Origin: a virus
Reading direction: 5' to 3' (one strand)
Length of the DNA: 50,495 nt
IMG/VR virus record: IMGVR_UViG_3300028840_001404
Coordinates: 1 to 50,495 of that record
Notes under the pieces: generated by a model
Databases searched by the model: none
What the model saw: the letters and a program-made list of their open reading frames with translations, nothing else
What the model was told of the DNA's origin: nothing
Position numbers and translations under genes: made by a program
Shown here: one piece after another, positions 455 to 50,495 of the stretch
Numbering within the stretch: the first letter of the stretch is position 1
Layout of the letters: each line of letters begins with the position of its first letter

Positions 455-1225
455 ATGGCCTTTACTAAACAAGATTATTACGAGACCGGAGATAATTCCG
501 AAGTTGGTACATATTTTTATTACCAACGTGGTCAAGTATTTACTGCTTCTTCAAGTTATACCATCACTAGAGTATCACTAAAAGTTCGTAGACTGTCTGG
601 TTATGACCCTGGCAATGCTAAAGTAGAGCTATTTGCTGTTGATGAGAGTGACCATCCAACTGGGTCTGCCCTAGCTGATGCAACAATTGATGGTGGCACT
701 TTTGGAACTACGGCTGACTGGGAAGATTGGGATTTTAGTGTTGGATATGCTCTATCGTCTGGTACTAAATATGCAATTGTACTATCATGCCCCGATTTAA
801 ATAATAGTTCACTTCTATCGGTCCAGTGGCGAACTGATACTACATCACCAACATATACAGGAGGAGCGGATCTATATTCAGCCAACGGAGGATCAACATG
901 GTCTTCACTTGGCTATGATCTTATGTTCCGCACCTATAGTGGAAGCGACCACGTTACTCGCGAGCTTTCTGGAACTATTGACGGAACCAGCAGTATAACA
1001 GGTATTTTATCTGGAGTTTCACTTGACTTAGCAGGCACTATCACAGGTCAATCCTCTCTGACTGGAACTATTACGCCTACAATTCCATTATCTGGAACAA
1101 TCACGTCTCTTAGTACTGTGGTGGGGACGGTAACATTTGGACCATTAAGTGGAGATAAAGCAGAGAAGGTGAGAAAATACTTGGTTGCTTTTGGAAATGA
1201 TTCTGTTTCTTACGAGAGTGTTTAA
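455..1225 (+). CDS. Tail-tip jelly-roll protein with GTI repeats (receptor-binding candidate)
   Basis: This is a 256-residue protein. Residues about 1-165 form a beta-sandwich-type domain (GQVFTASSSYTITRVSLKVRR) that aligns with the N-terminus of the gene at 49189-50376. Residues about 168-230 are imperfect repeats of the form LSGTI..TSSITG, typical of phage surface proteins. The C-terminus (VRKYLVAFGNDSVSYES) resembles the end of 49189-50376 (VKRLVMFGKDRCYFEN). The TAA stop is followed by ACA ATG, and the next gene (1229-2734) continues in the same frame, so the two could once have been one protein or could be joined by readthrough. A role in host binding or nozzle decoration is inferred. 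Confidence 0.7.
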   Translation: MAFTKQDYYETGDNSEVGTYFYYQRGQVFTASSSYTITRVSLKVRRLSGYDPGNAKVELFAVDESDHPTGSALADATIDGGTFGTTADWEDWDFSVGYALSSGTKYAIVLSCPDLNNSSLLSVQWRTDTTSPTYTGGADLYSANGGSTWSSLGYDLMFRTYSGSDHVTRELSGTIDGTSSITGILSGVSLDLAGTITGQSSLTGTITPTIPLSGTITSLSTVVGTVTFGPLSGDKAEKVRKYLVAFGNDSVSYESV

Positions 1226-43661: not shown

Positions 43662-43704
43662 GTGAACCATCCTCTTTACTGAAATGATTAACAGGAATTA
43701 TCAT

Positions 43705-44394
43705 ATGAAGGTGTGTGTTCATTGTGGTCAGAAAAAGAACCTAAGTGAGTTCCATGCCGACAGGTCACAATCTGACGGTGTAAGAACAACCTGCAAGGAG
43801 TGCTCTAAGGAGTATTCTAGACTAAGAAACTTGTCCAAAACAACAGGACAGGGTTTTGTTTGGAATACAAAGAAGATAGTTCCAAATGGATATAAACGCT
43901 GTGGTTCATGTGACCAAGTAAAAACTCTTGATGAGTTTGGTGCAAGAGAAAGAACACAAGATGGCAAGCGTTATAGTTGTAAAGAATGTGTGAATCTTCA
44001 AAACCAAGCCAGGATTGATTCTCTGGAAGGTATTGAAAGAGAAAAACACTTAGCTATTGCTAGGCAGAAATCCAGCAAAGCTCGTCAAACCGAGAAAGAG
44101 TTTTATGGTCCTTATTATACTGTGGTCCTAAATTGTAGAAGTATGGCTTCTAAGACCAACCACTCTTGGCAAGAGGTAGAATGCTGGTACGCCAAAACCT
44201 TCATGAGGCAGCAAGCACGTTGTGCAATCTGTGGTACAATTCCTGAAACCTTGTGTATAGACCACGACCACGAAACGCTGGAACTTCGTGGTCTATTGTG
44301 TAAAAACTGTAATACTGGAATAGGAATGCTGCAAGATTCAGCGGATATTTGCTCCTCAGCAGTTTCCTATCTACAAAATTTTAAAGGAGTATAG
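43705..44394 (+). CDS. Endonuclease VII-type homing endonuclease
   Basis: This is a 229-residue protein. Two N-terminal zinc-finger repeats (VCVHCGQKKNLSEF...CKECSKEYSR; KRCGSCDQVKTLDEF...CKECVNL) precede an endonuclease VII core: CAICGTIPETLCIDHDHETLELRGLLCKNCNTGIG. It is inserted between the capsid and decoration genes, a common homing site. ATG 43705 has AGGA upstream and is preferred over ATG 43684. Confidence 0.85.
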   Translation: MKVCVHCGQKKNLSEFHADRSQSDGVRTTCKECSKEYSRLRNLSKTTGQGFVWNTKKIVPNGYKRCGSCDQVKTLDEFGARERTQDGKRYSCKECVNLQNQARIDSLEGIEREKHLAIARQKSSKARQTEKEFYGPYYTVVLNCRSMASKTNHSWQEVECWYAKTFMRQQARCAICGTIPETLCIDHDHETLELRGLLCKNCNTGIGMLQDSADICSSAVSYLQNFKGV

Positions 44395-45924: not shown

Positions 45925-46293
45925 ATGAGTGCTGAATGTAATGTTAACGTAATAGCCAAGCTGACTGGGCTTGGAGACATCCAGGAGTTTGCTAAAAGGT
46001 TCTCTACTACAGCTACTCCTACACGGGCTATCTATCATTACGCTGTACAAGACACTGCTGATACAGCTCAGGCTCTCGAAGTTGGTGATGTTGGGACTAT
46101 CGAGCTCATTATTTTGAAGTGTGTCAGTAATGATGTCGATATTGATACGTCTTATGTATCTAGCTTTAGTGCTGAGATTGAAGTACAAGAGGGTGAATTG
46201 ACTATCTTCAAACCTACTGGCACGGTATATATTCAGAACGATGATGCCGGTGAGACATCAACTGTCGAATACCTCGTAATAGGAACCAGCTAA
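45925..46293 (+). CDS. Virion structural protein, unknown
   Basis: This 122-residue protein is beta-rich, acidic at the end (PTGTVYIQNDDAGETS). GAGGAG precedes ATG 45925, and its stop overlaps the adaptor start. It is probably a small head-tail or tail component. Confidence 0.6.
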   Translation: MSAECNVNVIAKLTGLGDIQEFAKRFSTTATPTRAIYHYAVQDTADTAQALEVGDVGTIELIILKCVSNDVDIDTSYVSSFSAEIEVQEGELTIFKPTGTVYIQNDDAGETSTVEYLVIGTS

Positions 46294-47054
46294 TGGCTAC
46301 ACTTAAGGTTACGTATTCCGACTTGTTAGTACGGGTATCCGACTTCCTCGGTTTGGGAAGCAGTACGCCAACTGGTGATGATCTTACCTTGTGTGGTGAT
46401 ATTGTAGCTAGAGGATACCGTCAGTTTCTCTATCCCGTTGATATGAGAACGGGGGATACTTATGAGTGGAGTTTTCTGAAAAAGTTCTTTGTCCTGCCCA
46501 TCAAGTCTGGTAAGTGGGTTTATCAGCTTCCAGAAGATTATTCTGAAATATTGACCGATCCTACTTATGATGACGACGATGGGTATAACTGTCTGGATAA
46601 GAGGACTCCTGAGGAAATTCTTAACCTACGTTCAGCAGTTGTGGAATCCTATCCTCCAAGCTACTATACTGTAGTTCCTCAAGGAACGAATTTGGAAACG
46701 GGCAGCTTCGATGAGCTTTGGATTTATCCGGAACCGGATGGTGCTTACAACCTTAAGTTCTTCTATAAAACTGATCCACTAAAGCCCAGCAACATTGCCG
46801 ATTACTTAGTAGGAGGAGTTAAAGGTGCCGAAGCCCTGATAGAATCTTGTCTAGCAGTAGCAGAGCTACAAGAAGATGACACCATAGGAGTGCATACACA
46901 AAAAGCAGAAGAGTTGATACAGAAGTTGATTGTAGTAGATTCTAAACGTGATGAGGATGCTATTGTCGGCAACCTTTACTCAAATACTGATCTCCTAGTG
47001 ACTCGCCGTCACCGGGGGATTCAAAACCTTTCTGACATTTATCCTGGAGAGTAA
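46293..47054 (+). CDS. Head-to-tail adaptor (tail tubular protein A-like)
   Basis: This is a 253-residue protein. Segments such as DLLVRVSDFLG, CGDIVARGYRQFLYPVD, YTVVPQGTNLETGSF and YNLKFFYKTDPLKPSN fit the adaptor family that joins portal and nozzle (T7 gp11-like or P22 gp4-like). It is placed between head and tail genes as expected. Confidence 0.75.
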   Translation: MATLKVTYSDLLVRVSDFLGLGSSTPTGDDLTLCGDIVARGYRQFLYPVDMRTGDTYEWSFLKKFFVLPIKSGKWVYQLPEDYSEILTDPTYDDDDGYNCLDKRTPEEILNLRSAVVESYPPSYYTVVPQGTNLETGSFDELWIYPEPDGAYNLKFFYKTDPLKPSNIADYLVGGVKGAEALIESCLAVAELQEDDTIGVHTQKAEELIQKLIVVDSKRDEDAIVGNLYSNTDLLVTRRHRGIQNLSDIYPGE

Positions 47055-48959: not shown

Positions 48960-49184
48960 ATGCAGAAGCTTCCGCTGCCAATCAAAGGTTTAAACCGAGG
49001 GATAACCGTTGCCTTAACTCCAACGGAGTATACTACTAATATAAATAATGTCCGTCCTAAAGATGTGCTAGAGAACAGATTTAGAATGGGGCAGAGGCCA
49101 GGACTAAAGAAGTGGTCTACCGATAGAGTAGGTGGTGACAACCAACCTGTGATTGAAATTGTTTCTGTAAGTTCAATCAGTTAA
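48960..49184 (+). CDS. N-terminal segment of the tail nozzle, as a separate gene
   Basis: This 74-residue protein (LPLPIKGLNRGITVALTP, NINNVRPKDVLENRFRMGQR, PGLKKW) matches the start of propeller nozzle proteins: compare the T7 gp12 pattern I-K-x-L-x-x-G-I followed by a R-P-P-L-V segment. It stops with TAA. The rest of the nozzle is at 1229-2734, beyond a cassette of three genes. It may be a real short subunit or a nozzle start cut off by insertion. Confidence 0.65.
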   Translation: MQKLPLPIKGLNRGITVALTPTEYTTNINNVRPKDVLENRFRMGQRPGLKKWSTDRVGGDNQPVIEIVSVSSIS

Positions 49185-49188
49185 AATT

Positions 49189-50376
49189 ATGGCTACTCTT
49201 TATTCATATACTCCATATAATGAAGCCCTAGATGATCCAATAAATACAGCAAGTTCAAAGGGACAGGTTTTTACTTTATCTTCTGGGGGAACTGTTGAAT
49301 CTGTTACTCTTCGGGTTCGTCGGGTAAATAATGCTACTAATTGCAGGGTATCGTTATATTCTACTTCTGGTGGATTGCCCCTTGCTGAATTAGCTTATGT
49401 GGATGTAGACCCTTCTGGATGGAGTACGGGATATAATGACCTTGTTTTTACTTTTGACACCCCTTATGAAGCTGAGGCAGAAACATATTGTATTGTACTC
49501 TCTTCAACAGATGCTCCTTTTGATAATCCAAGTTGGGCTGTTTCAACAGATAATAATGGAACAGAGGCAGTATGGACAGTTGGTGGAGTTTGGGAAGTAT
49601 TTGTTGGACCAAGAGGACATTCTTTAACTGTTTCTGGAACTGAGGCAGGGCATGTCAAAGCCTCTAATCCTACTCCAGCCAATGGAGCTACAGAGGTAGA
49701 CTTTTCTGGCTACACTCTGTCTTGGGATGGGAATGGAGATACGTATGATGTTCGTGGAGGAGCTGCGGGTAATTTTGTCCTTCTAGCCTCTGGTATTTCT
49801 GACAAAACCTATACTTTGGATTCTAGTGAAGTCCCTTTGTTCAAGGAGGGTGTTGTCACTTGGCGTGTTGATTCAACTAAAGATACAGAGACTTTAACTG
49901 GAGATGAGTGGACATTTGACCCTCGTCCGGGAAAAGCGTCCTCTCCTACCCCTTCAGATGAAGGAACGGATATCTCTATCGAACAAGACTTCTCTTGGAC
50001 GATTGGTACAAATGGCACAACGAACGATCTTGTTCTAGCAGGTTCTACCATTCTCAGTGGAAGTACTGACACTTCATACAGTCTGGCTGCTGATCTGTTT
50101 GATTGGGAAGACAGTGTTGAATGGAGGGTAGACAGTATTAATGAGTTTGGTACTACAACTGGTGATACCTGGGGTTTTACGGCTAAAGATTTGGACCATC
50201 TCCGAATTACTTATAACTTGATTGATGGAGGAAGTGGTAATGGTCCTTATGACGATCCGGCCGGAGTAGAAGGTGTAGACTACTTTTGGACTGGATTAAA
50301 TAACGTTATAACAGTTAAACGGTTAGTCATGTTTGGTAAGGACCGTTGTTACTTTGAGAATTTTACGGGAGGTTAA
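49189..50376 (+). CDS. Tail-tip jelly-roll protein with two FN3/Ig-like repeats (receptor-binding candidate)
   Basis: This is a 395-residue protein. Residues about 20-140 are a jelly-roll domain paralogous to 455-1225 (GQVFTLSSGGTVESVTLRVRR). Two Ig/FN3-like repeats follow, each with PTP near the start and WRVDS...TGD.W.F near the end (ASNPTPANGATE...; ASSPTPSDEGTD...). The C-terminus VKRLVMFGKDRCYFEN resembles the end of 455-1225. It crosses the contig junction: its last 25 bases recur at 1-25. A host-surface binding role is inferred. Confidence 0.7.
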   Translation: MATLYSYTPYNEALDDPINTASSKGQVFTLSSGGTVESVTLRVRRVNNATNCRVSLYSTSGGLPLAELAYVDVDPSGWSTGYNDLVFTFDTPYEAEAETYCIVLSSTDAPFDNPSWAVSTDNNGTEAVWTVGGVWEVFVGPRGHSLTVSGTEAGHVKASNPTPANGATEVDFSGYTLSWDGNGDTYDVRGGAAGNFVLLASGISDKTYTLDSSEVPLFKEGVVTWRVDSTKDTETLTGDEWTFDPRPGKASSPTPSDEGTDISIEQDFSWTIGTNGTTNDLVLAGSTILSGSTDTSYSLAADLFDWEDSVEWRVDSINEFGTTTGDTWGFTAKDLDHLRITYNLIDGGSGNGPYDDPAGVEGVDYFWTGLNNVITVKRLVMFGKDRCYFENFTGG

Positions 50377-50495
50377 GGTGAGTTTTTCTAACTACCTTGA
50401 GAACGAAGTACTAGACCATGTAATGGGAGTTGGGGCTTATTCTGCTCCTACTGTGTATGCAGCCTTGTGTACTGCTGATCCCACTGAGGCTGGTA
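50352..50495. repeat. Terminal direct repeat, right copy
   Basis: Identical to bases 1-144. It includes the end of 49189-50376 and the first 118 bases of the gene that starts at 27 (here GTG at 50378, cut by the window end). Confidence 0.95.
50378..50495 (+). CDS. Partial second copy of the gene at 27-434
   Basis: This is the first 39 codons of the SFSNYLEN-type virion protein, cut by the end of the window. It is not a real duplicate: it is the terminal overlap of a circular map. Confidence 0.9.
   Translation, partial: MSFSNYLENEVLDHVMGVGAYSAPTVYAALCTADPTEAG

Follow-up and report, generated by a model that had tools for sequence, protein, structure and literature searches.

Two parts of a nozzle on either side of a circular junction

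The window, a stretch of 50,495 nt comprising the whole IMG/VR virus record IMGVR_UViG_3300028840_001404, carries near its end a 74-residue open reading frame (ORF) that looks like the start of a propeller-type tail nozzle, and near its beginning a propeller body that lacks this start. This raises the question of whether the two belong to one nozzle and, if so, how they came to be encoded apart. A sequence-only reading had taken them for a nozzle cut in two by inserted host-binding modules; that interpretation is partly supported by our analysis, and the split is older than it had assumed.

Both ORFs are present on the plus strand. The N-terminal piece (N-piece; PVIEIVSVSSIS) runs from an ATG to a TAA at 48960–49184, and the body (501 aa, 1229–2734) begins without that segment. 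The window ends are an exact 144-bp direct repeat, positions 1–144 being identical to 50352–50495, a repeat that could reflect a circular record or an assembly overlap and from which we take the record as circular. Because the record closes to a circle, the gap between N-piece and body measures 2,396 nt across the junction, close to the 2.4 kb given earlier. It holds three plus-strand ORFs: cassette protein 1 (395 aa, 49189–50376), a protein of the Gp80/GP4 fiber I type (27–434) and cassette protein 2 (256 aa, 455–1225). The description of these as two jelly-roll proteins and a small virion protein stands as far as the three ORFs go, but the 395-aa protein also has Fn3-like repeats.

Upstream lies the gene of an adaptor protein (46293–47054, plus strand; PF24175 SU10_adaptor, 1.4e-10), which would form the ring on which a nozzle docks; an upstream adaptor gene is shared with podophage nozzles. 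Of a six-fold ring under a dodecameric adaptor, it is the sole element visible in the window. A free-standing HNH/endonuclease VII-like ORF (43684–44394) is found beside the likely major capsid gene, and another within the cassette gap of a relative (L025, 6490–6930), both recognized by reading the sequence only; genes of this kind could drive module exchange.

Fold of the body and conservation of the N-terminal segment

The window body, which comprises the remaining propeller and the C-terminal platform part, matches PHROG 376, a tail protein family, at 4.6e-5, with only positions 225–386 of the 712-position profile covered rather than its full length. Its fold was assigned through the homologue in L100, where N-piece and body were folded as one chain by reading the single in-frame TAA between them as Ser, a modelling device that carries no claim about translation. 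AlphaFold predicted the L100 body with pLDDT mostly >90, and the 13 best PDB matches of the model were all phage tail or nozzle structures (Foldseek, 1.1e-10 to 1e-5), including Pa223, SU10, cyanophage A4, T7, and GP4. A second model with a better-aligned N-piece again had Pa223 as best match, with some phage baseplate proteins among the top matches. As modelled, the body has the fold of a phage nozzle. A manual count of strands from DSSP in the AlphaFold models is consistent with seven blades and with the position of a conserved motif, described below, in blade 1. In the body of L002 (1614–3575), as in that of L006, KLTHAAF is followed by an additional jelly-roll-like insertion of ∼150 residues, which marks another point at which the propeller has taken up a domain.

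The N-piece itself was placed less directly. AlphaFold put residues 1–62 at pLDDT <50 and called segment 64–74 a strand (A9 alignment model), so that, of the structural comparison suggested earlier, the body falls onto known nozzles but the N-piece receives no placement; the PHROG 376 profile did not match the N-piece either. By analogy, we infer that it comprises the platform strands and the first propeller strand. The segment has homologues in 121 loci, and pN/pS ratios of 0.05–0.13 in four close pairs indicate strong purifying selection; together, these observations show that the N-piece is not a chance ORF. Each of 20 phage records of 45–51 kb has one N-piece and no more, carried in a 75–137-aa open frame. 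In L005 (8115–8984), a LamG domain (PF13385, 2.9e-17) interrupts the N-piece between its RPGL motif and the last strand.

The split is shared across the clade

Searches of cultured phages with the body or the N-piece returned no relatives, and relatives were therefore taken from IMG/VR, where the body profile found 48 loci and the N-piece profile 80, and from bacterial genomes. Both parts are present in 76 distinct loci. In every one of these, the N-piece is a separate short ORF directly upstream, and fusion of N-piece and body was found in none of these split relatives. The sequences thus place the split state across the clade; it is not peculiar to the window phage, which runs counter to the proposal that a cassette inserted in this phage had made it. 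The sequence-only reading would have failed had relatives always encoded the 74-residue protein as a gene of its own away from the nozzle, and half of this holds: across the 76 relatives it is always separate, but never away from the nozzle.

Three arrangements recur. The N-piece is followed by a cassette, motif, and body in one ORF in 17/76 loci (type a); by a cassette ending in the motif and then a body that starts with it in 32/76 (type b); and, as in the window, by a cassette with motif, often a Gp80-type gene, a second cassette with motif, and a body in 27/76 (type c). The types were set by an HMM threshold, and a few loci are misplaced (e.g. L016 and L084). On a quick body tree, each arrangement requires at least 8–13 changes.

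The stop codon of the N-piece and the next start codon are separated by a median of 1 nt and often overlap. Such proximity would also fit programmed frameshifting or stop-codon readthrough, by which translation would link the pieces and leave no split protein in the virion. That explanation is extremely improbable in our assessment: every one of the three relative frames and of the three stop codons is used at these junctions, nearly all loci have a nearby start codon for the ORF that follows, and in types b and c this ORF encodes a cassette protein, not the body. We rejected frameshifting, readthrough, and assembly error as causes of the split on the junction evidence from the 76 loci; the pattern looks like that of coupled separate genes.

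Unsplit homologues and the origin of the split

Planctomycetota genomes searched with the N-piece profile yielded unsplit forms. Three loci encode single ORFs of 1456 aa (L144), 861 aa (L150), and 1345 aa (L151), each with the N-segment at the start, a large insert, and the propeller body at the end; in L144, the N-segment is matched at 5.7e-15 and the body at 8e-51. The stretch ahead of the L144 body, YQELLCASAGSTFYIEDT, sits at the place of the blade motif by our own reading, while the motif HMM gives no call. With order and insert position as in the window, the three loci indicate that the pieces belong to one ancestral protein and bear out the earlier view that the 74-aa ORF and the propeller belong to a single nozzle and are separated by variable modules.

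They also weigh on the alternative that the 74-aa ORF encodes some unrelated small tail protein, for instance one joining adaptor and nozzle, and neighbours the nozzle gene by coincidence. Every split relative encodes this protein separately, and in the AlphaFold model it was not folded against the body, yet the same segment and the propeller body share one chain, in the same order, in three homologous ORFs, and we regard a chance neighbour as very improbable.

The split form occurs in three other bacterial genomes (L005, L152, and L153). A branch with an SH-aLRT value of 95 separates the unsplit forms from all split ones on the quick body tree, and the split may therefore go back to a single fission. 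The unsplit homologues are distant, with long branches on the same tree, which counts against the model of an ancestral chain broken into the present pieces. All six copies from bacterial genomes (L005, L144, L150, L151, L152, and L153) are from Planctomycetota, the only phylum sampled with the N-piece profile, which hints at Planctomycetota as hosts. A 661-aa stabilization protein from Manatee Spring (L139), tried as a candidate unsplit nozzle, was rejected, as hhalign gave a probability of 11.6% for the N-piece and none for the body; a search for kin of L139 found none.

A blade motif at the C-terminus of the cassette proteins

A two-strand motif, KRLVAAxNNxIWYEDI, forms the C-terminal end of the cassette proteins; its occurrence there is new in this analysis. 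Scanning 5,215 ORFs with a motif HMM gave 115 matches within six residues of the C-terminus, 62 directly ahead of the body core, two within bodies, and none elsewhere. Where an N-piece is visible in the locus, 111 of 111 C-terminal matches lie downstream of it. Most relatives have the motif within the body ORF, as YKRLVAAGNDEIWYED ahead of the core TMVEL...DTSDQL. Recounted separately from the three arrangement types, 20 of 81 distinct bodies, including that of the window, begin after it, and the protein upstream of such bodies usually carries the motif at its C-terminal end. In the window, motif copies end both cassette proteins: copy 1 (NNVITVKRLVMFGKDRCYFENFTGG; 50299–50373, plus strand) was identified in the 395-aa protein by the C-terminal motif (CTM) HMM and within-locus comparison, and copy 2 (EKVRKYLVAFGNDSVSYESV; 1163–1222, plus strand) ends the 256-aa protein with the strands that most relatives have on the N-terminal side of the body.

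With the motif absent from the body and present on the cassette proteins, the window propeller seems, from these sequences, to be built from at least three polypeptides. The division into two pieces proposed earlier therefore has to be revised to three or more: the first two blade strands, too, are missing from the body and stand at the C-terminus of the 256-aa protein.

The motif might instead lack a structural role and be a remnant of module recombination or a site targeted by it. Exchanged cassettes are indeed flanked by motif copies, and two copies occur where one would suffice. What is conserved, however, is the protein sequence, given that copies from the same locus are identical at 62% of first and second codon positions but at 40% of third positions; moreover, in the 20 motif-less bodies the copy on the upstream protein, where it has one, is the only one adjoining the body. 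We consider a purely recombinational motif unlikely. The duplication still counts against a structural reading, since loci with a separate cassette mostly have two motif copies for apparently one slot, which the model of blade completion does not explain.

Cassette proteins diverge faster than the nozzle parts

Cassette protein 1 combines a jelly-roll-like domain, Fn3-like repeats, and the blade motif (phrog_877, 1.4e-4; motif HMM), and cassette protein 2 a jelly-roll domain and the motif. The latter domain shares 33% identity over 148 aa (E 3e-15) with a domain fused to the body in L100, for which AlphaFold predicts strands; the same stretch is thus one ORF in L100 and two in the window. Neither window cassette protein matched Pfam, DUF4082 (PF13313) included. 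DUF4082 scored above cut-off in the relative L153 (29.8 vs 28.4 bits) and below it in L100 and L116. Across relatives, cassette domains are of jelly-roll/DUF4082, LamG, and Fn3 types. In five loci, a cassette protein is divided into two ORFs in the middle of an Fn3-like domain at the same site, after ...TFSW (L010 2837/2844, L017 6590/6597, L026 6608/6612, L088 7051/7058, and L118 7114/7121), with the next start a few nucleotides past the stop. These loci show a second type of gene break within a domain, one that recurs.

The Gp80-type gene encodes 135 aa from a GTG at position 27, a start set by the homologue in L001, and the same gene also starts at 50378, within the terminal repeat. Its product matches PF23140 at 6.3e-42 (143.4 bits, above the Pfam cut-off of 27) and the GP4 chain 8jou_a in the PDB at 7.6e-11, and so belongs to the family of Gp80/fiber I of Ralstonia phage GP4. 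In several other inspected phages (e.g. phiM5 and Venkman), the Gp80 homologue directly follows the gene annotated as tail tubular protein A, unlike the window, where it stands between the nozzle pieces.

In close pairs with bodies 72–87% identical, N-pieces are 67–97% identical, whereas the N-terminal 60% of cassette protein 1 reaches only 24–41%. Fast cassette divergence beside a conserved N-piece and body is as predicted by module exchange. The cassette proteins are probably host-binding on this sequence evidence, and receptor exchange through them is plausible. It is quite possible, if short of an even chance, that the nozzle is split as described and the inserted domains are structural, serving as nozzle tip, fiber dock, or protection without receptor binding; inserted nozzle-tip or Ig-like domains build the tail tip in SU10 and T7 (PMC9509320, PMC6702177). 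The rapid divergence of cassette 1 and the changes of domain type between jelly-roll/DUF4082, LamG, and Fn3 argue against such a purely structural role.

A proposed assembly and its relation to known nozzles

The reading that we consider likely is that this podovirus-type tail nozzle is encoded in pieces, an ancestral single chain having been broken at a domain-insertion site, and that the pieces assemble non-covalently and leave the display domains exchangeable. From the sequences, the ancestral chain comprised an N-terminal segment, inserted domains, the blade-1 strands, the propeller, and the platform. A break at the insertion site made the N-terminal segment a gene of its own, positioned for coupled translation. 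In the window, a second break follows the first two blade-1 strands, so that they now end the upstream 256-aa protein, and a further copy of them forms the end of the 395-aa protein.

The T7 nozzle offers a template for how such chains might fit together. In T7 gp12, three strands of the platform barrel come from a 45-residue N-terminus, and blade 1 is closed by the first strand of the propeller, which serves as a velcro strand (PMC6702177). SU10 has nozzle domains that lie inserted between its blades (PMC9509320). If the window nozzle is built in an analogous way, the N-piece would provide strands of the platform together with the closing (velcro) strand, and the motif on the cassette tail would supply what blade 1 lacks, its first strands. 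The chains would then assemble into a hexameric nozzle without a covalent link, with the display domains (jelly-roll, Fn3, lectin-like) carried on the cassette tails at the tail tip. Joined only through a conserved short tail, these domains would be freely exchangeable, and they would probably serve host-surface recognition.

More tentatively, and in our view rather doubtfully, the nozzle could act as a plug-in dock in which each display protein donates its own copy of the two blade strands to the propeller. Different display proteins would then share equivalent slots or compete for them, and a single virion might carry a mixed set. Chaperone-usher pili use donor-strand complementation, in which a strand from one protein completes the fold of another. 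If the model holds, the nozzle would be alike in this respect; we claim no sequence relation.

The nozzles of T7 (gp12), SU10 (gp17), GP4, and Pa223 resemble the window nozzle in the fold of the propeller body (Foldseek, 1e-10 to 1e-5), and those of SU10 and T7 also in having domains inserted within the chain; a platform formed from the N-terminal segment and the C-terminal part in T7 (PMC6702177) is a further likeness. All four are single chains, whereas here separate genes encode the parts, the inserted domains are separate proteins, and the blade motif has moved to, and is repeated at, the C-termini of the inserted proteins. L144, L150, and L151 share with the window the order of N-segment and body and the place of the large insert, but are unsplit ORFs of 861–1456 aa, distant in sequence from the window form. 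No account of a split nozzle turned up in a literature search restricted to openly licensed papers.

Podophages eject their DNA through the gate that a propeller nozzle forms. The C-terminal blade motif provides a sequence tag by which cassette proteins can be found in uncultured phages where little else is recognizable. If the proposed assembly is true, a blade completed by strands from exchangeable proteins would represent a new means of attaching variable modules at the tail tip, by way of a short conserved C-terminal tail, and would account for the ability of a conserved ring to accommodate inserted domains of very different kinds.
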